A stretch of 64,000 nt of DNA from Nitrospirales bacterium. Lineage in GTDB: Bacteria > Nitrospirota > Nitrospiria > Nitrospirales > UBA8639. Position 1 is the stretch's first letter; the number at the start of each line of letters is the position of its first letter. This document shows, piece by piece, positions 2,737 through 47,401 of this stretch. The notes under the pieces were generated by a model that made no database searches, was not told the origin of the DNA, and saw only the letters and a program-made list of their open reading frames with translations. Where the stretch lies: positions 1-64,000 of the forward strand of contig JAJEJG010000001.1 in assembly GCA_022828225.1 (NCBI GenBank). The letters run 5' to 3'. The translations under genes were made by a program, and so were the position numbers.

Positions 2737-3720
2737 ATGGACGATTTCGAGAGACAATCTGTCGGGAATTCGCATCCGGCAAAGCACGTTCCGACGCGCG
2801 GCATTCCGTCCTGGTTGAGGCTGGTTCAAGACGGTTTTCTCGTATGGGTCATGCTCGGCGCCGCCTGGGGTTGGTTCATGCCGGGTCCTGCCGCCTCCGG
2901 GAAAATTTGGATTCCCGAAGCCTTGGCCGCCGTGATGCTCGGGATGGGACTGACGCTGACGCACCGGGATGTGCTCACCCTGCGTCAGGGAGGCCGGATG
3001 TTGCTGTTGGGCGTGGCCTTGCAGTACGTGGTAATGCCGCTGGGGGCGTGGGGCATCGCGACCATCCTGGGCCTGCCGAAACTGTTGGCGCTCGGCGTGA
3101 TCCTGGTCGGTGCCTGTCCCGGGGGGACGGCCTCGAACGTGGTGGCCTACCTCGCCCGGGGCGACGTGGCGTTATCCGTGGGCATGACGACGGTCTCGAC
3201 GTTGCTCAGCCCGCTCTTGACGCCCCTGTGGATTTGGCTTCTCGCCTCCACGTGGTTGGCCATTGACCCGCTCCCGCTTTTATGGACGGTGACGAAGATC
3301 GTCTTGTTGCCGGTGGTTGCGGGCATGTTTCTTCGCCGCGTGTGGCAACCGGGTCCCCGGTTTCTTGAAGGCGTGCTGCCGCTCCTGTCGATGGTCATGA
3401 TCGCCTGGATCGTCGGGGTCATCGTCGGGTTGAATCACGATCATCTCCACGTGGCCGGCCTGGTGGTGCTGGCCGTGGTCCTCCATAACGCGCTGGGCTT
3501 GACGCTCGGGTATTGGGGATCTCGACTGGGGAACGTTTCGCCTCGCCTTTGCCGAACCGTGGCCCTCGAAGTCGGCATGCAGAATTCCGGGCTGGCCGTG
3601 GCCCTGGCCGTGGCGCATTTCGGCCCGGTGGCCGCCGTCCCCGGCGCGGTGTTCAGTATCTGGCACAACGTGACCGGCCCCCTGTTGGCGACGATCTGGC
3701 GCCGGTCGCATAGAGCGTGA
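2737..3720 (+). CDS. Bile acid:sodium symporter (BASS) family transporter
   Basis: An integral membrane protein of about 327 residues with nine or ten hydrophobic segments. Family signatures are visible: MLGMGLTLTHRDV in the second helix, LGVILVGACPGGTASNVVAYLARGDVALS in the crossing-helix core, and ALEVGMQNSGLAVALA near the C-terminus. BASS members take up organic anions with sodium; the substrate here cannot be read from sequence. An in-frame ATG nine codons upstream (2710) is an alternative start. It stands alone, divergent from the tRNA/lipoprotein unit. Confidence 0.88.
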   Translation: MDDFERQSVGNSHPAKHVPTRGIPSWLRLVQDGFLVWVMLGAAWGWFMPGPAASGKIWIPEALAAVMLGMGLTLTHRDVLTLRQGGRMLLLGVALQYVVMPLGAWGIATILGLPKLLALGVILVGACPGGTASNVVAYLARGDVALSVGMTTVSTLLSPLLTPLWIWLLASTWLAIDPLPLLWTVTKIVLLPVVAGMFLRRVWQPGPRFLEGVLPLLSMVMIAWIVGVIVGLNHDHLHVAGLVVLAVVLHNALGLTLGYWGSRLGNVSPRLCRTVALEVGMQNSGLAVALAVAHFGPVAAVPGAVFSIWHNVTGPLLATIWRRSHRA

Positions 3721-3857
3721 ATCTCGCTGCAATGCGGTCCGTCACTCAGTAACGGTTCAGTCCTTCATGCCGTTTGTTATCGGCACGTTATCGCTCAAGC
3801 CAATCCCTCGCCAATCAACAACAAATAGTAGTTATAGCCATAGATTTATACAACATC

Positions 3858-3886
3858 TTGACTTGATAAGTGTAACTTGCTAAGTT
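3858..3886 (+). promoter_or_regulatory. Possible promoter for the Pal-like gene
   Basis: TTGACT at 3858-3863 is followed after 17 bases by TAAGTT at 3881-3886. It lies in an AT-rich 250-base gap and about 85 bases before the gene start. The -35 match is good, the -10 weak, so this is only a candidate. Confidence 0.25.
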
Positions 3887-3970
3887 TTATAAATTAAGGT
3901 GTTTGGCTGGTAGGCGCTCGGCGTCACGCATGCGCCGGTTAGAGGATGCAACAGAAAAGGAGGGTTCTGC

Positions 3971-5047
3971 ATGGCCACCATAAAAGCGAAGAGTGTCGTG
4001 ACTCTGCTTGTCATCGGCATAGGTCTGTTGGTGACGTTATCAGCATGTGAGAATTCGAAACATGCGGAAGTCATGAGTACGGAAGATTTATGGGCAGACG
4101 GCCAAACGGCGACAGTTCCTGATGCGGATACGCAGACAGAGATAGAGGCACAGAGTGCTCAACCCGGCGGTTCATTCGAGGGACAATCCATCGACGAGGA
4201 GCTATTGGGCTTGTCGGAACCCCTCGTGTTCGCCCCGGAACCTCCACCGAGTCCGGACTCACCGGCTCGCGATGCATCCGAGTCCGATGCTGAGACGACA
4301 CCTGCTCCTGAAGCGGCATTTTCCGCTCCTGCGCGTGTTCTTCCGAAAGGATATTCGGAATCCCCGCGTGTCGAACGGAGCCCGGGATCGGACTACGTTC
4401 CCGACTCACCCCCTCAAGTTTTTCGGGATGCCCGTGTCAGGGAGTTTGGTGTCAGTGTCTTGGACCAGCCGGCGAAGGAAATCGTCCAGGCTGAGGAACT
4501 GGCACCGGTGCCGCCACCGCCACCTGCAGCAGCGCCGTCACCCGTGAATGAGGTTGCGGAGAAGACCTTGTCCACCGAGGAACCCGTTGCCGAGCCGGAG
4601 ATGGAGATCGCCAAACTCGAACCATCCGATTTCATTCACGAAGCGCCCGGGCCGGCGCTGGAAGCCGGCCGCGTTGAAACGGGTGTGGAGTCGGAGTTGG
4701 CCGACGTCTTTTTTGATTTCGATCAATATGCAATTCAGTCCAGTGCCATCCCCGTATTGGAGAAGAATGCCGAACTGCTGAAACAGGCCTATAAGACATC
4801 CAGCGTGCTGATCGAAGGCCATTGTGACGAACGTGGGACAGGGGAGTATAACCTGGAATTGGGGAAACGCCGGGCGCAAGCCGTCAAAGAGTATCTGGTT
4901 GATCTGGGAATCGAGGAATCCAGACTTCAAATTGCCAGCTACGGGAAAGAAAAACCGTTCTGCGCGGAATCCACGCCGAGTTGCTGGCAAAATAATCGAC
5001 GCGGGCATTTTGTGCAGCGCGTCCTCCAGACCTCCTTGTCAAAGTGA
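3971..5047 (+). CDS. pal: Peptidoglycan-associated (Pal/OmpA-type) lipoprotein
   Basis: The protein has 358 residues. The N-terminus is a lipoprotein signal (VTLLVIGIGLLVTLSAC; lipid Cys about residue 26). A long acidic, proline-rich linker of about 200 residues follows, with runs such as VPPPPPAAAPSP. The last 115 residues are an OmpA-like peptidoglycan-binding domain: DVFFDFDQYAIQ, LIEGHCDERGTGEYNLELGKRRAQAV and the Pal-type ending CWQNNRRGHFV. Pal tethers the outer membrane to the cell wall with the Tol complex. The linker is much longer than in classical Pal (about 170 residues in total), and no tol genes are nearby. Its 3' end is duplicated at 6674. Confidence 0.85.
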   Translation: MATIKAKSVVTLLVIGIGLLVTLSACENSKHAEVMSTEDLWADGQTATVPDADTQTEIEAQSAQPGGSFEGQSIDEELLGLSEPLVFAPEPPPSPDSPARDASESDAETTPAPEAAFSAPARVLPKGYSESPRVERSPGSDYVPDSPPQVFRDARVREFGVSVLDQPAKEIVQAEELAPVPPPPPAAAPSPVNEVAEKTLSTEEPVAEPEMEIAKLEPSDFIHEAPGPALEAGRVETGVESELADVFFDFDQYAIQSSAIPVLEKNAELLKQAYKTSSVLIEGHCDERGTGEYNLELGKRRAQAVKEYLVDLGIEESRLQIASYGKEKPFCAESTPSCWQNNRRGHFVQRVLQTSLSK

Positions 5048-18992: not shown

Positions 18993-19128
18993 TGGAATTT
19001 TGCCACGCATCCGTTACCGAGAGGTAACAATGGAAGGGAAGGTGCAAGTTCTTTCCCGCATCTTTGAATGAAGATCAATTTTGTGATTTCTCGTACTCTT
19101 TTGGTCAATAAAACTGGAATAATGTCAC

Positions 19129-19150
19129 CAATGGCACAAAACAATGGCAC
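19129..19150. repeat. Paired direct repeat CAATGGCAC, possible activator site
   Basis: CAATGGCAC occurs at 19129-19137 and again at 19142-19150, a period of 13 bases, about 340 bases before the sigma-54-type promoter. Distant paired sites are the usual arrangement for sigma-54 activators, but nothing identifies a specific regulator. Confidence 0.3.
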
Positions 19151-19485
19151 TATTTAACTTTATGTCAAATCATATGTGTTTATCGTCAAGCCTCATAGGC
19201 TGAATGGACCATTAAGTTACGAAAACTACACGTCTGATGATCGGTTCATGACAGGCAGTTTATTTAAAGATATCATAACATATTGTTTTAATTGATATAA
19301 AATGAAATTTTGAAGATAGTTCAATCGCTAGGTCGCATGGCGTCGAAATTTTTGGTCATCCGGGGTAGGGTCGTAGTCCATTCGTGCTACCGAATGGAAA
19401 CGTTAGGGAAGGACCAGAATTCTTTAAAAAACAAATTTCTACTTATTTTCAAATAGTTATAAGTTTTATATGGGATCATGCGCAA

Positions 19486-19501
19486 TGGCCCGAAAATTGC
19501 T
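19486..19501 (+). promoter_or_regulatory. Sigma-54 (RpoN)-type promoter for nxrAB
   Basis: TGGCCCGAAAATTGCT matches the -24/-12 consensus TGGCACG-N4-TTGCW with one difference, and has the required GG-N10-GC spacing (GG 19487-19488, GC 19499-19500). It faces nxrA, predicting a transcript start near 19512 and a leader of about 165 bases. Sigma-54 promoters require an ATP-driven activator protein; none is encoded in this window. Confidence 0.65.
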
Positions 19502-19558
19502 AGAATCTACGTGTTATTAATGTCAGTCAGCCTGTCGTCAAGGCGGAGGATGAACGGA

Positions 19559-19690
19559 ATGATGAAGCAAGAGTCGGGAAGGGAGGTGGTAAGTCAGCAG
19601 TTTTCCCCAACAGGGGGTTTTTTCATTAATCCATTCCACGTTAGGCCGATCGGCCTTTACACGAGGAGGTTTCACAATGTTTCTTTCTAG
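19559..19690 (+). CDS. Possible 43-residue leader ORF overlapping nxrA start
   Basis: An ATG at 19559, preceded 9 bases away by GGAGG (19545-19549), opens a 43-codon frame that ends at 19690, 14 bases inside nxrA in another frame. It would be transcribed from the predicted sigma-54 promoter. Its translation would pass over the hairpin, the palindrome and the nxrA ribosome site, so it could couple or tune nxrA translation. The peptide resembles nothing recognised and the frame may be chance. Confidence 0.25.
   Translation: MMKQESGREVVSQQFSPTGGFFINPFHVRPIGLYTRRFHNVSF
19604..19656 (+). promoter_or_regulatory. Leader hairpin with T run, and 14-bp palindrome, before nxrA
   Basis: CCCC-AACA-GGGG (19605-19616) followed by G and six T resembles a weak terminator or attenuator. 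Downstream, AGGCCGATCGGCCT at 19643-19656 is a perfect 14-base palindrome ending 6 bases before the nxrA ribosome site. It could be an operator in DNA or a small hairpin in RNA near the ribosome site. Both lie in the predicted leader. Confidence 0.4.
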
Positions 19691-22600
19691 ACGTCAATTT
19701 TTAAAAGTGACCACCGGGACGGTGGCGGCAGTGGCGTTGGCGGACAAAGCCTTGGCCTTGACCGCGCTGCAACCGGTTGTCGAAGTGGGCAACCCGCTGG
19801 GCGAGTATCCGGATCGCGCCTGGGAGCGGGTGTACCACGATCAGTATCGCTATGATTCGTCGTTTACGTGGGTCTGCTCCCCGAACGACACGCACGCCTG
19901 CCGCATTCGTTCCTTCGTGCGTAACGGCGTGGTCATGCGGGTCGAGCAAAACTACGACCACCAAACCTACGAAGACCTCTACGGCAACCGCGGAACGTTT
20001 GCTCACAACCCGCGGATGTGCTTGAAGGGGTACACGATGCATCGTCGGGTGTATGGGCCCTATCGGTTGAAAGGTCCCTTGATGCGCCGTGGTTGGAAAG
20101 CCTGGATGGATGCCGGTAGCCCGGAATTCACCCCGGACGTCATGAATAAGTACAAATTCACTTCGCGGTACCTGGATGACATGTTGCGGGTAAGCTGGGA
20201 TACGGCCTTTACGTATCTGGGCAAAGCCATGGTCATTATCGCGGAGCGGTACAGCGGCGAAGCCGGTGCCCGTCGGTTGCGGGAACAAGGCTATCCGCCG
20301 GAAATGATCGAAATGACCAAGGGTTCCGGCGTGCGGTGCATGAAGTTCCGCGCGGGGATGCCCATCTTGGGCGTGATCGGCAAAATGGCCGTCACTCGGA
20401 TGAACGGTGGCTGCGGCGCGTTGCTCGACCACTACATTCGGAAAGTGAAACCTGCCCAGGCCCAAGGCGGCCGGTACTGGTCGAACTACACCTGGCACGG
20501 TGACCAAAACCCAGCGCATCCGTTCTGGTCCGGGGTCCAAACCTCTGACAACGACATGAGCGACATGCGGTTCGCGAAGTTGAACACAAGCTGGGGCAAG
20601 AACTTCGTCGAAAACAAAATGCCGGAAGCGCACTGGAAGCTCGAAAGCATCGAGCGCGGCGCGCGGGTGGTCGTGATCACGCCGGAGTACAACCCGACGG
20701 CGTATCGTGCCGACTACTGGATTCCGGTTCGGCCGGAAACGGACGCGGCGTTGTTCCTGGGTGCCTGTAAGATCATGTTCGACGAGAACATGCACGACCA
20801 TGATTTCTGCTCGGCCTACACGGACATGCCGATTCTGGTTCGTACGGATACCCTGCAATACCTGGATCCGCGCGACGTGATCAAGGGCTATAAATTGCCG
20901 GACTTCTCCAAGACCTATTCAGGGAAAGTGCAAACCCTGAATCCGGCGAAGATTGCCCGTCTCGGCGGTTTCATGGTGTGGGACACCAATAAGAACCAGG
21001 CCGTGCCGATTCACCGTGAATTGGTGGGCTGGCACTATCGGAACAGCGGTATCGAGGCGGCGTTGAACGGGACCTACCGGGTGAAGTTGCTGAACGGCCG
21101 GGAAGTCGACGTGGCACCGATCTTCCAGTTGTATCAAGTCCACTTGCAGGACTACGACCTGGATACGGTCCACCAGATCAACCGGGCCCCGAAGGACCTG
21201 ATCGTCCGCTGGGCCAGAGATTCAGGTACCATCAAACCGGCAACGATTCACAACGGGGAAGGCACGAACCACTACTTCCACCAAACCATCATTGCGCGTG
21301 GCGCGGCGATGGTGTTGATTCTCGCCGGGAACGTCGGGAAGTTCGGGACCGGGCAACATACCTGGGCCGGGAACTACAAAGCGGGGATCTGGAACAGCAC
21401 CCCGTGGTCCGGCGGTGGTTTGGGCACGCACACCGCGGAAAATCCGTTCAAGATCACGACGGATCCGAACGCACACGGTAAAGAAGTGCACGTGCGTGGC
21501 TACTACTATGGTGAAGAGGTGGCTTACTGGAACCATGGGGACACGGCGTTGATCGTGAACACGCCGAAGTATGGGCGCCGGGTGTTTACCGGAAAAACGC
21601 ACATGCCGACCCCGACCAAGTTCCGGTGGGTGGCGAACGTCAACGTGTTGAACAACGCCAAACACCACTATGACATGGTTAAGAACGTGGACCCGCACAT
21701 CGAATGTATCGTCACCCAGGACATCGAGATGACCTCGGACGTGAACCACGCGGACGTGGCCATGGGTGTGAATACGTGGATGGAGTTCACGTATCCGGAA
21801 CATACCGCGACGGTGTCGAATCCGTGGTTCCAGGTGTGGAAAGGGGGCATCCGGCCCTTGTATGACACCAGAAACGACCTGGATACGACCGCCGGCGTGG
21901 CCGCCAAATTGACCAACATGACGGGCGATGGGCGGTTCCGGGATTACTTCAAGTTCGTCTATGACAACCGGGTGGACGTGTACGTGCAACGGTTGTTGGA
22001 CGCCAGTTGTACGGGGTACGGGTACAGCGTTGACACCATGCTCAAGTCCGAAAAGGGCTGGATGGTGCTGTGCCGGACGTATCCACGGCAACCGTTCTGG
22101 GAAGAGACGAACGAATCGAAGCCGCAATGGACGCGGACTGGCCGGTATGAAAACTACCGGACGGAGCCGGAAGCCATTGAGTACGGTGAAAACTTCATTT
22201 CGCACCGGGAAGGGACGGAGGCCACTCCATACCTACCGAACGCGATTATGACGACGAACCCGTACGTACGGCCGGATGACTATGGTATTCCTATCACCGC
22301 GCAGCACCATGACGACAAGACGGTGCGGAACATTGCGTTGCCGTGGCAGGAAATCAAACGGTACTCCAACCCGCTGTGGGAGAAGGGGTATCAATTCTAC
22401 TGCGTGACGCCGAAGACGCGGCATCGTGTACACAGCCAATGGTCAGTGAACGACTGGGTGCAGATGTATGAATCGAACTTCGGTGACGCGTATCGGATGG
22501 ATAAACGGACACCGGGCGTGGGTGAGCATCAACTTCACATGAACCCACAATCGGCGAAAGACCGAGGCATCAACGACGGTGACTATGTGTACGTTGACGG

Positions 22601-23114
22601 CAATCCGGTTGATCGGCCGTACCGCGGATGGAAGCCGAGTGACCCGTACTACAAAGTGGCTCGGTTGATGATTCGTTGTAAGTACAACCCGGCGTTCCCG
22701 TACCACGTGACGATGGCGAAACACGCTCCGTACGTGGCCACCGCGAAATCCGTGAAGGGTCACGAAACACGACCGGATGGACGGGCCATCGCGATGGATA
22801 CGGGTTATCAATCCAACTTCCGGTATGGGGCGCAACAGTCCTTCACACGTGACTGGTTGATGCCGATGCACCAGACCGACTCACTGCCGGGCAAACACGC
22901 GGTGGGCTGGAAGTTTAAATTCGGGTATCAAGTGGACAACCACGCAGTCAACACCACTCCGAAAGAATGTCTGATGCGGATCACCAAAGCAGAGGACGGT
23001 GGTATCGGCGGCAGGGGTCCATGGGAGCCAGTCCGGACCGGGTTTACGCCTGGGCAGGAAAATGAGTTCATGATCAAGTGGCTCAAAGGCGACCACATTA
23101 AGATCAAGGTGTAA
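19677..23114 (+). CDS. nxrA: Nitrite oxidoreductase alpha subunit
   Basis: The protein has 1145 residues, the length typical of Nitrospira NxrA. It oxidises nitrite to nitrate at a molybdenum bis-MGD centre on the periplasmic side. The N-terminus is a twin-arginine signal (SRRQFLKV, residues 4-11), so the folded complex is exported. The first iron-sulfur site reads C67-x3-D71-x3-C75...C115, with Asp in place of one Cys. The segment YWSNYTWHGDQNPAHPFWSG and the following TSDNDMSDMRF lie where the Mo-proximal Asp of type II DMSO-reductase enzymes is expected. The ribosome site GAGGAGG is 7 bases from the ATG. It is co-transcribed with nxrB 74 bases downstream. Confidence 0.98.
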   Translation: MFLSRRQFLKVTTGTVAAVALADKALALTALQPVVEVGNPLGEYPDRAWERVYHDQYRYDSSFTWVCSPNDTHACRIRSFVRNGVVMRVEQNYDHQTYEDLYGNRGTFAHNPRMCLKGYTMHRRVYGPYRLKGPLMRRGWKAWMDAGSPEFTPDVMNKYKFTSRYLDDMLRVSWDTAFTYLGKAMVIIAERYSGEAGARRLREQGYPPEMIEMTKGSGVRCMKFRAGMPILGVIGKMAVTRMNGGCGALLDHYIRKVKPAQAQGGRYWSNYTWHGDQNPAHPFWSGVQTSDNDMSDMRFAKLNTSWGKNFVENKMPEAHWKLESIERGARVVVITPEYNPTAYRADYWIPVRPETDAALFLGACKIMFDENMHDHDFCSAYTDMPILVRTDTLQYLDPRDVIKGYKLPDFSKTYSGKVQTLNPAKIARLGGFMVWDTNKNQAVPIHRELVGWHYRNSGIEAALNGTYRVKLLNGREVDVAPIFQLYQVHLQDYDLDTVHQINRAPKDLIVRWARDSGTIKPATIHNGEGTNHYFHQTIIARGAAMVLILAGNVGKFGTGQHTWAGNYKAGIWNSTPWSGGGLGTHTAENPFKITTDPNAHGKEVHVRGYYYGEEVAYWNHGDTALIVNTPKYGRRVFTGKTHMPTPTKFRWVANVNVLNNAKHHYDMVKNVDPHIECIVTQDIEMTSDVNHADVAMGVNTWMEFTYPEHTATVSNPWFQVWKGGIRPLYDTRNDLDTTAGVAAKLTNMTGDGRFRDYFKFVYDNRVDVYVQRLLDASCTGYGYSVDTMLKSEKGWMVLCRTYPRQPFWEETNESKPQWTRTGRYENYRTEPEAIEYGENFISHREGTEATPYLPNAIMTTNPYVRPDDYGIPITAQHHDDKTVRNIALPWQEIKRYSNPLWEKGYQFYCVTPKTRHRVHSQWSVNDWVQMYESNFGDAYRMDKRTPGVGEHQLHMNPQSAKDRGINDGDYVYVDGNPVDRPYRGWKPSDPYYKVARLMIRCKYNPAFPYHVTMAKHAPYVATAKSVKGHETRPDGRAIAMDTGYQSNFRYGAQQSFTRDWLMPMHQTDSLPGKHAVGWKFKFGYQVDNHAVNTTPKECLMRITKAEDGGIGGRGPWEPVRTGFTPGQENEFMIKWLKGDHIKIKV

Positions 23115-23188: not shown

Positions 23189-24478
23189 ATGCCAGAAGTT
23201 TATAATTGGCAATTAGGGCGGAAGATGCTGTATCCCTACGAGGAACGGCATCCAAAGTGGCAATTCGCCTTTGTGTTCAACATCAATCGCTGCTTGGCCT
23301 GTCAGACCTGTTCCATGGCGGATAAATCCACATGGTTGTTCTCGAAGGGCCAGGAGTACATGTGGTGGAACAACGTGGAAACGAAGCCGTATGGCGGATA
23401 TCCACAGTTCTACGACGTGAAAATCACGCAGTTGATCGAACAAGTCAACCCAGGCGGACAGGTGTGGAACGTGCGGGTCGGCCGCAAACACCATGCGCCG
23501 TATGGGGTGTTCGAAGGAATGACCATTTTCGATGCCGGGGCCAAAGTCGGCCAGGCCGCGATCGGGTACATTCCGACGGACCAAGAATGGCGTTTTGTCA
23601 ACATTTATGAAGACACGGCCACGTCAATGCGCGCCCTTGTGGAAGGCATTGATAAGACCGGGTTTACCAAAGAAGAACCATGGCGGATGACCGGCAGCAG
23701 CTTGCCGGAACATGAAACCTACTTCTTCTATCTTCAACGCATTTGTAACCATTGCACCTACCCGGGTTGTTTGGCTGCGTGCCCGCGGAAGGCCATCTAC
23801 AAGAGGCCGGAAGACGGGATCGTGCTGATCGACCAGAACCGGTGCCGTGGGTACAAGAAGTGCGTGGAGCAATGTCCATTCAAAAAGCCGATGTATCGGG
23901 GTACGACTCGGGTCACCGAGAAGTGCATCGCTTGCTATCCGCGGGTCGAGGGGAAAGATCCTCTGACCGGCGGCGAGCCGATGGAAACCCGGTGTATGGC
24001 GGCCTGCGTGGGTAAGATTCGCTTACAGAACCTCGTCAAGATCGGTGAGGATGGACTGTGGGCGGAAGATCGGTGGAACCCCCTGTACTACACCATCCGT
24101 GTGGAACAGGTGGCGTTGCCGCTGTACCCGCAATGGGGCACCGAGCCGAACGGGTTCTACATTCCCCCGCGGCAAGCGCCTCGTGGCTACATCCGGCAGA
24201 TGTTCGGGCCGGGCGTGGACAATGCGATCGAGAAGTACCTGGTGCCGAGCCGGGAACTGTTAGCCGTCCTCCAGCTCTGGAGAGCGAGCCAACAGATCGT
24301 CTTCCGGTACGACATCATTCCTGGACCGAAAGTGTTCGAAACCCAAATTCACGGTCGGAAGTTCGAGATGTACAACGACACCGTGTTAGGGTTCAACAAG
24401 TCCGGGAAGGAAGCCGTGCGGCAGCAGGTGGAAGAGCCGATTTACATTCGGCCAGCCGAACGCGCTACTTGGCTGTAA
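23189..24478 (+). CDS. nxrB: Nitrite oxidoreductase beta subunit
   Basis: The protein has 429 residues with no signal peptide; it is thought to be exported with NxrA. It carries electrons through four iron-sulfur clusters. Ligand groups seen are C35-C38-C41 (then Asp45 where NarH has Cys), C186-C189-C194-C198, C219-x5-C225-x3-C229 with Tyr222 at the position that marks a 3Fe-4S cluster, and C246-C249...C269-C273. The ribosome site GGAGG is close to the ATG. A strong terminator follows 20 bases after the stop, so no gamma subunit is co-transcribed here. Confidence 0.98.
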   Translation: MPEVYNWQLGRKMLYPYEERHPKWQFAFVFNINRCLACQTCSMADKSTWLFSKGQEYMWWNNVETKPYGGYPQFYDVKITQLIEQVNPGGQVWNVRVGRKHHAPYGVFEGMTIFDAGAKVGQAAIGYIPTDQEWRFVNIYEDTATSMRALVEGIDKTGFTKEEPWRMTGSSLPEHETYFFYLQRICNHCTYPGCLAACPRKAIYKRPEDGIVLIDQNRCRGYKKCVEQCPFKKPMYRGTTRVTEKCIACYPRVEGKDPLTGGEPMETRCMAACVGKIRLQNLVKIGEDGLWAEDRWNPLYYTIRVEQVALPLYPQWGTEPNGFYIPPRQAPRGYIRQMFGPGVDNAIEKYLVPSRELLAVLQLWRASQQIVFRYDIIPGPKVFETQIHGRKFEMYNDTVLGFNKSGKEAVRQQVEEPIYIRPAERATWL

Positions 24479-47113: not shown

Positions 47114-47401
47114 ATGGCCAAAGCTATGACCAAGTCTCAGATCGTTGATCAGTTGGCGACAAAGTCTGGTGTGACAAAAAAGACCACAAGTGAAATTCTC
47201 GATAACTTGGCTGCCTTGGCTTACAAGGAAGCGAAAAACTCCTTTACCGTACCCGGACTGGGGAAGTTAGTGTTGTCTCATCGGAAAGCTCGAACCGGAA
47301 GGAATCCTCAAACCGGTGAGCCGATCAAGATTCCGGCCAAGAAAGTGGTGAAGTTTCGCGTAGCCAAAGTCGCGAAGGATTCCATCTTGGGCAAAAAGTA
47401 A
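47114..47401 (+). CDS. HU/IHF-family DNA-binding protein
   Basis: The protein has 95 residues, the usual length. N-terminal helices (TKSQIVDQLATKSGVTKKTTSEILDNLAALAYKEAK) and the DNA-clasping arm (FTVPGLGKLVLSHRKARTGRNPQTGEPIKIPAKKVVKFRVAK) are intact, including the conserved RTGRNPQTGE turn and the intercalating Pro. It shapes the nucleoid by bending DNA. The ribosome site is GAGGAGG. It is monocistronic behind a good promoter. Confidence 0.97.
   Translation: MAKAMTKSQIVDQLATKSGVTKKTTSEILDNLAALAYKEAKNSFTVPGLGKLVLSHRKARTGRNPQTGEPIKIPAKKVVKFRVAKVAKDSILGKK

Follow-up and report, generated by a model that had tools for sequence, protein, structure and literature searches.

A conserved sigma-54-type promoter with enhancer-like and IHF-like elements upstream of nxrAB in Nitrospirales, and a candidate activator acting in trans

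Introduction

Classical sigma-54 promoters of the nifH/NifA and glnAp2/NtrC type combine -24 and -12 boxes with an upstream activator site (UAS) and an IHF site. An IHF site between UAS and promoter is common in sigma-54 promoters but not universal. Nitrospirales perform much of the world's nitrite oxidation, and to our knowledge it is not known how these bacteria switch the key enzyme. Among the closest described cases are the nitrite oxidoreductase (NXR) genes of Nitrospira moscoviensis, where sigma-54-dependent regulators, one of them NifA-like, adjoin nxr copies, with none near nxrAB_1; sigma-54-dependent control of some nxr copies has already been proposed from these linked regulators (PMC6606698).

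Sigma-54-type regulators beside nxr in Nitrospira are thus already known, whereas the promoter architecture and regulator described here are new as far as the searchable literature shows. That literature, key subscription papers excepted, contains no earlier report of this promoter, of its dyad and IHF-like site, or of an NXR-linked regulator for unlinked copies. The window analyzed here, a whole stretch of 64,000 nt from a Nitrospirales bacterium, shares with the nifH and glnAp2 type the -24 GG, the -12 GC, a dyad ∼100 to 125 bp upstream, and a putative IHF-like site in between. In contrast to that type, the promoter in the window belongs to the central enzyme of energy metabolism in a chemolithoautotroph, and its start is predicted. 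The dyad, G-N-TACC-N4-GGNAAC, matches no UAS consensus known to us.

The nxrAB locus

The alpha subunit of nitrite oxidoreductase is encoded by nxrA (positions 19677 to 23114, + strand), whose product of 1145 amino acids shows a Tat signal and a molybdopterin domain. The beta subunit gene nxrB (23189 to 24478, + strand; 429 amino acids, 4Fe-4S) follows nxrA after a gap of 74 bp and is probably cotranscribed with it. The single copy of nxrA in the 2.36-Mb genome shows 84 to 99% identity to Nitrospirales nxrA. The nearest public records are Nitrospirales metagenome-assembled genomes, e.g., Nitrospira sp. SB0677_bin_15 and RHO3_bin_20, several of which presumably come from sponges.

The motif TGGCCCGAAAATTGCT (19486 to 19501, + strand) contains GG at 19487 to 19488 and GC at 19499 to 19500, 10 bases apart in a TGGCAC-N5-TTGC-like arrangement, and deviates from TGGCACG-N4-TTGCW by a single mismatch at position 5. 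The ATG of nxrA at 19677 lies 191 bases past its first base, and the intergenic region (18993 to 19676) spans 684 bp with 40% GC, compared to 58% for the window. A first-pass annotation of this DNA had claimed the GG-N10-GC spacing, a one-base difference from the -24/-12 consensus, the correct orientation about 190 bases before nxrA, and an unusually long AT-rich surrounding, all of which are borne out. With the C of the GC set at -12, the predicted +1 falls on 19512, the same position near which the annotation had placed the start.

Conservation of the sigma-54 boxes

The motif by itself proves nothing, as it stands at chance level. Matches with at most one mismatch number one in the window compared to 0.65 expected, half of the shuffles hold one, and the genome-wide count for TGGCNNGN4TTGCW (21 matches, compared to 18 for the reversed control) indicates no enrichment. 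Conservation was therefore used as the test. In an alignment of the region before nxrA from 13 nxrA-bearing genomes of the genus, including the genome of the window, TGGC-N8-TTGC is unchanged and at fixed spacing in all 13, while neighboring bases and lengths vary. Order-wide, 84 nxrA upstream regions were grouped into 52 clusters at 70% identity. GG-N8-TTGC occurs in 43 of these clusters, compared to 1 to 5 for any other spacer from 3 to 19 and to a mean of 2.4 (maximum, 8) in shuffled upstream regions; a slightly wider upstream region brings the number to 44. Since GG and TTGC were fixed by the order-wide search, their invariance there is by construction, and the spacer control is the test. 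The T at position 1 is also kept (38/44 clusters), in agreement with the sigma-54 consensus. The alignments argue decisively for conservation beyond chance, and the boxes, for which the first-pass annotation had proposed a comparison with related genomes, show no loss in the 13 genomes of the genus.

The chance-level counts of the motif in the window and genome could be taken to mean that it is a chance resemblance or the conserved site of another protein. Such a reading is highly improbable: the spacing at which GG and TTGC reappear in diverged upstream regions is exactly that of sigma-54 promoters and no other, and enhancer-like and IHF-like sites that keep their distances also speak against chance, which the spacer test across the order practically excludes.

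Enhancer-like dyads, the IHF-like site, and the leader

The enhancer-like dyad GCTACCGAATGGAAAC (19386 to 19401, + strand) lies ∼100 bp before the -24 box and is kept in the genus as a putative upstream activator site. Within the dyad zone, G-N-TAC is found in 39 of 44 clusters, compared to a shuffle mean of 6.4 (maximum, 14). Two large families can be distinguished, that of the window with G-N-TACC-N4-GGNAAC ∼100 bp before the box and another with G-N-TACG...TACYC ∼125 bp before it. Between dyad and promoter, the IHF-like site TTTCAAATAGTTA (19447 to 19459, + strand; -39 from the -24 box) is predicted to bind an IHF/HU-type protein. Its core, CAR-N4-TTR, is present at this place in 28 of the 44 clusters, where shuffles average 1.8 and never exceed 7, and is missing from the other 16, which counts against the full architecture there. 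The core is located at about -39 in the first dyad family and about -50 in the second, and the shifts of dyad and IHF-like site between the families appear to be close to whole helical turns. Judged by these alignments, the control elements seem to be retained in most of the order Nitrospirales.

Further elements are found upstream. A second, weaker dyad-like element, GTTACGAAAACTACAC (19216 to 19231, + strand), to which a similar role may be ascribed, shows an invariant GTTAC and a kept AAA..AAAC-like half in the 13-genome alignment. The perfect palindrome GTTACC-GAGA-GGTAAC (19013 to 19028, + strand), 20 bp after the preceding gene, is the sole perfect match in the genome and is kept in several genus members; it is possibly a third enhancer site or part of the terminator of the preceding gene. 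Between the second and first dyads, an AT-rich ATTGTTT...ATTGA (19280 to 19300) occurs in 13/13 genomes, possibly as another bending site.

When dyad and sigma-54 box are required together in strict form, the genome yields a single match, at nxrA. A search for a wider regulon with the composite of UAS and sigma-54 box returned only nxrA in this genome and almost only nxrA in the genus, with scattered GC-rich matches elsewhere being judged chance. One locus considered as a sister promoter (L126, TGGCGGGAAAATTGCT, contig C4) was dropped because its sequence seems to fall within a coding region, which we take to be glucose-6-phosphate dehydrogenase-like. At the nxrA locus of Nitrospira sp. SB0677_bin_15 (L056), the usual nxrA promoter is closely preceded by a second full set of dyad, IHF-like site, and sigma-54 box (3003 to 3118). 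This extra promoter copy precedes an inserted reading frame (3203 to 4066), in our reading similar to an NYN/PIN-type protein; the same holds for G008:C90.

The predicted leader of 165 nt (19512 to 19676, + strand) carries the conserved AGGAGGTGGT and, ahead of the ribosome-binding site of nxrA, a TTCCCC/GGGG hairpin, as seen in the alignment and in a scan for terminator-like structures. In this part of the window (19570 to 19660), AGGAGGTGGT has no nearby ATG and the small C/G hairpin is followed by T's, features kept in much of the genus. A search for a structured-RNA leader gave no Rfam family above the threshold, and folding is no better than that of shuffles.

Two classes of nxr copies

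At the named loci with enough flank, nxr copies were called linked if an activator gene lies ≤3 kb upstream. The dyad and sigma-54 architecture is present in 0 of 12 linked copies compared to 40 of 47 unlinked copies (Fisher P = 4.5e-8, not corrected for shared ancestry), and 7 of the 47 unlinked copies are without it. The unlinked N. moscoviensis copy L075 shows the architecture and, judged by its position, should be nxrAB_1. The linked copies of N. moscoviensis and Nitrospira defluvii are like the locus of the window in that sigma-54-type regulators have been proposed for nxrAB (PMC6606698). They differ in lacking the dyad and sigma-54 architecture, both parts of which are found before nxrA of the window. 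Here, no activator is linked and control is exerted in trans, and the same must hold for nxrAB_1 of N. moscoviensis. The N. defluvii-type linked copies (L107 and L109 to L112) contain a sigma-54-like TGGCAYG-N6-GTGCA without a dyad about 254 to 258 bp before nxrA.

Sigma-54 machinery and the candidate activators

The genome encodes one RpoN (PF04552 at 201 bits), whose translation contains the RpoN box ARRTVAKYR, and eight full-length Sigma54_activat proteins, i.e., AAA+ enhancer-binding proteins, seven of which contain GAFTGA; both components had been named by the first-pass annotation as ones to look for. None of the eight activator genes is located in the contig of the window, and the activator therefore works in trans. 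Of the three HU/IHF-family genes of the genome, one lies in the window (47126 to 47386) and matches the HU-beta and IHF-alpha models below the curated cutoffs.

Among the eight, the response regulator L033 (G000 contig C17:4575-6014) is the leading candidate, although its assignment as the nxrA activator is an evenly balanced call. L033 shows the domains of a sigma-54 enhancer-binding response regulator, a PF00072 receiver, a PF00158 AAA+ domain, and a PF02954 Fis-type HTH, all above the cutoff and with GAFTGA present. It stays below the curated equivalog cutoffs for AtoC (486/714 bits), NtrC (415/559 bits), NifA (395/529 bits), and NtrX (376/600 bits). The L033 gene overlaps that of a kinase whose domains are dCache, HAMP, and three copies of PAS. 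A ferredoxin-like protein and a TorD-like chaperone are encoded in the same cluster, which in G010, a genome of one contig, also includes an NxrC-like gamma subunit; the cluster order is kept in G066. The pair resembles those of the AtoSC/NtrBC type in joining a receiver-AAA+-Fis-type HTH regulator to a PAS-bearing membrane kinase, and AtoC and AtoS are its top-scoring NCBIfam models, neither reaching the cutoff. Contrary to AtoSC and NtrBC, it features dCache and three PAS domains in the kinase, an NXR gene neighborhood, and a four-cysteine cluster. The four cysteines lie between the AAA+ lid and HTH in 35/35 readable L033 orthologs and are arranged as C-x4-C-x11-C-x2-C in the genome of the window, where no other activator has such a cluster; they may form an iron-sulfur or zinc site.

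A clear ortholog of L033 (E below 1e-150) is present in 136 of 147 genomes and in 0 of 4 nxr-less genomes of family f4. Two small genomes of the same genus (G002 and G007, 90 to 92% complete) keep the promoter and contain just two activators, the orthologs of L033 and L035. Against L033 stand two genomes with a completeness rating of 99%, G077 and G113, which keep the promoter and in which full L033 was not detected, and the finding of no copies of promoter or dyad at the nxrC/TorD cluster. Activator genes likewise show no convincing dyad sites.

The main rival to L033 is the NtrX-like L035 (contig C7, with an NtrY-like kinase), which would link nxr to the overall nitrogen or redox state, with no dedicated switch. 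L035 has GAFTGA and a kinase partner gene, and orthologs occur in 8/8 genomes checked, including the reduced ones and G077, which is without detectable L033. Its neighborhood, however, is housekeeping, whereas L033 sits among NXR maturation genes, and the assignment to L035 is the less probable of the two. An activator other than L033 or L035 is unlikely. The PAS-type L039 was rejected as an obligate activator because four genus members without a close L039 ortholog (G001, G002, G007, and G008) keep the promoter. In G000 contig C1 (L205, 6030 to 10200), a PAS-type sigma-54 activator with several cysteines in its PAS domain is encoded ahead of two cytochrome c genes.

Proposed mechanism

In the preferred reading, nxrAB would be transcribed from an RpoN promoter at 19486 to 19501 that is unable to open alone. 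An AAA+ enhancer-binding protein acting in trans, most likely L033, would bind the dyad at 19386 to 19401, perhaps also the elements at 19216 and 19013, and an IHF/HU-type protein would bend the DNA at 19447 to 19459. ATP hydrolysis by the activator would then open the complex, with transcription starting near 19512. Conservation shows the promoter architecture itself; binding, bending, and start are inferred. That a UAS-IHF-sigma-54 promoter drives nxrAB, whichever protein activates it, is very probable. The sigma-54-type promoter claimed by the first-pass annotation is supported by conservation, by RpoN and eight activators, and by the dyad and IHF-like site, and the conserved layout together with this machinery also favors its suggestion that the core energy enzyme is under the control of an ATP-dependent activator.

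Alternatively, a sigma-70 promoter in the AT-rich region could carry most of the basal nxrA transcription, with sigma-54 only boosting it. In line with this alternative, the stretch from 19248 to 19320 contains four sigma-70-like matches, compared to 1.8 in shuffles. Inspection of the 13-genome alignment revealed no -35/-10 pair at a fixed position, which makes it unlikely, although the kept ATTGTTT...ATTGA near 19285 qualifies that argument. For the sigma-54 promoter, the more specific proposal of a dedicated NXR switch is tentative and slightly less secure than L033 itself: a membrane kinase and the cysteine-cluster regulator L033, encoded beside gamma-subunit and chaperone genes across Nitrospirales, would activate unlinked nxrAB via the UAS-IHF-sigma-54 promoter.

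Implications

The promoter kept across the order would place nxr under ATP-dependent, signal-gated control beyond housekeeping alone. The nxr copies fall into two regulatory classes, one trans-activated and the other self-linked, and this division may underlie differences in expression between paralogs. It is plausible that the genes beside another NXR subunit encode a two-component switch for nxr, and the conserved dyad together with the NXR-linked kinase/regulator pair provides concrete molecules for the study of this control in Nitrospirales.
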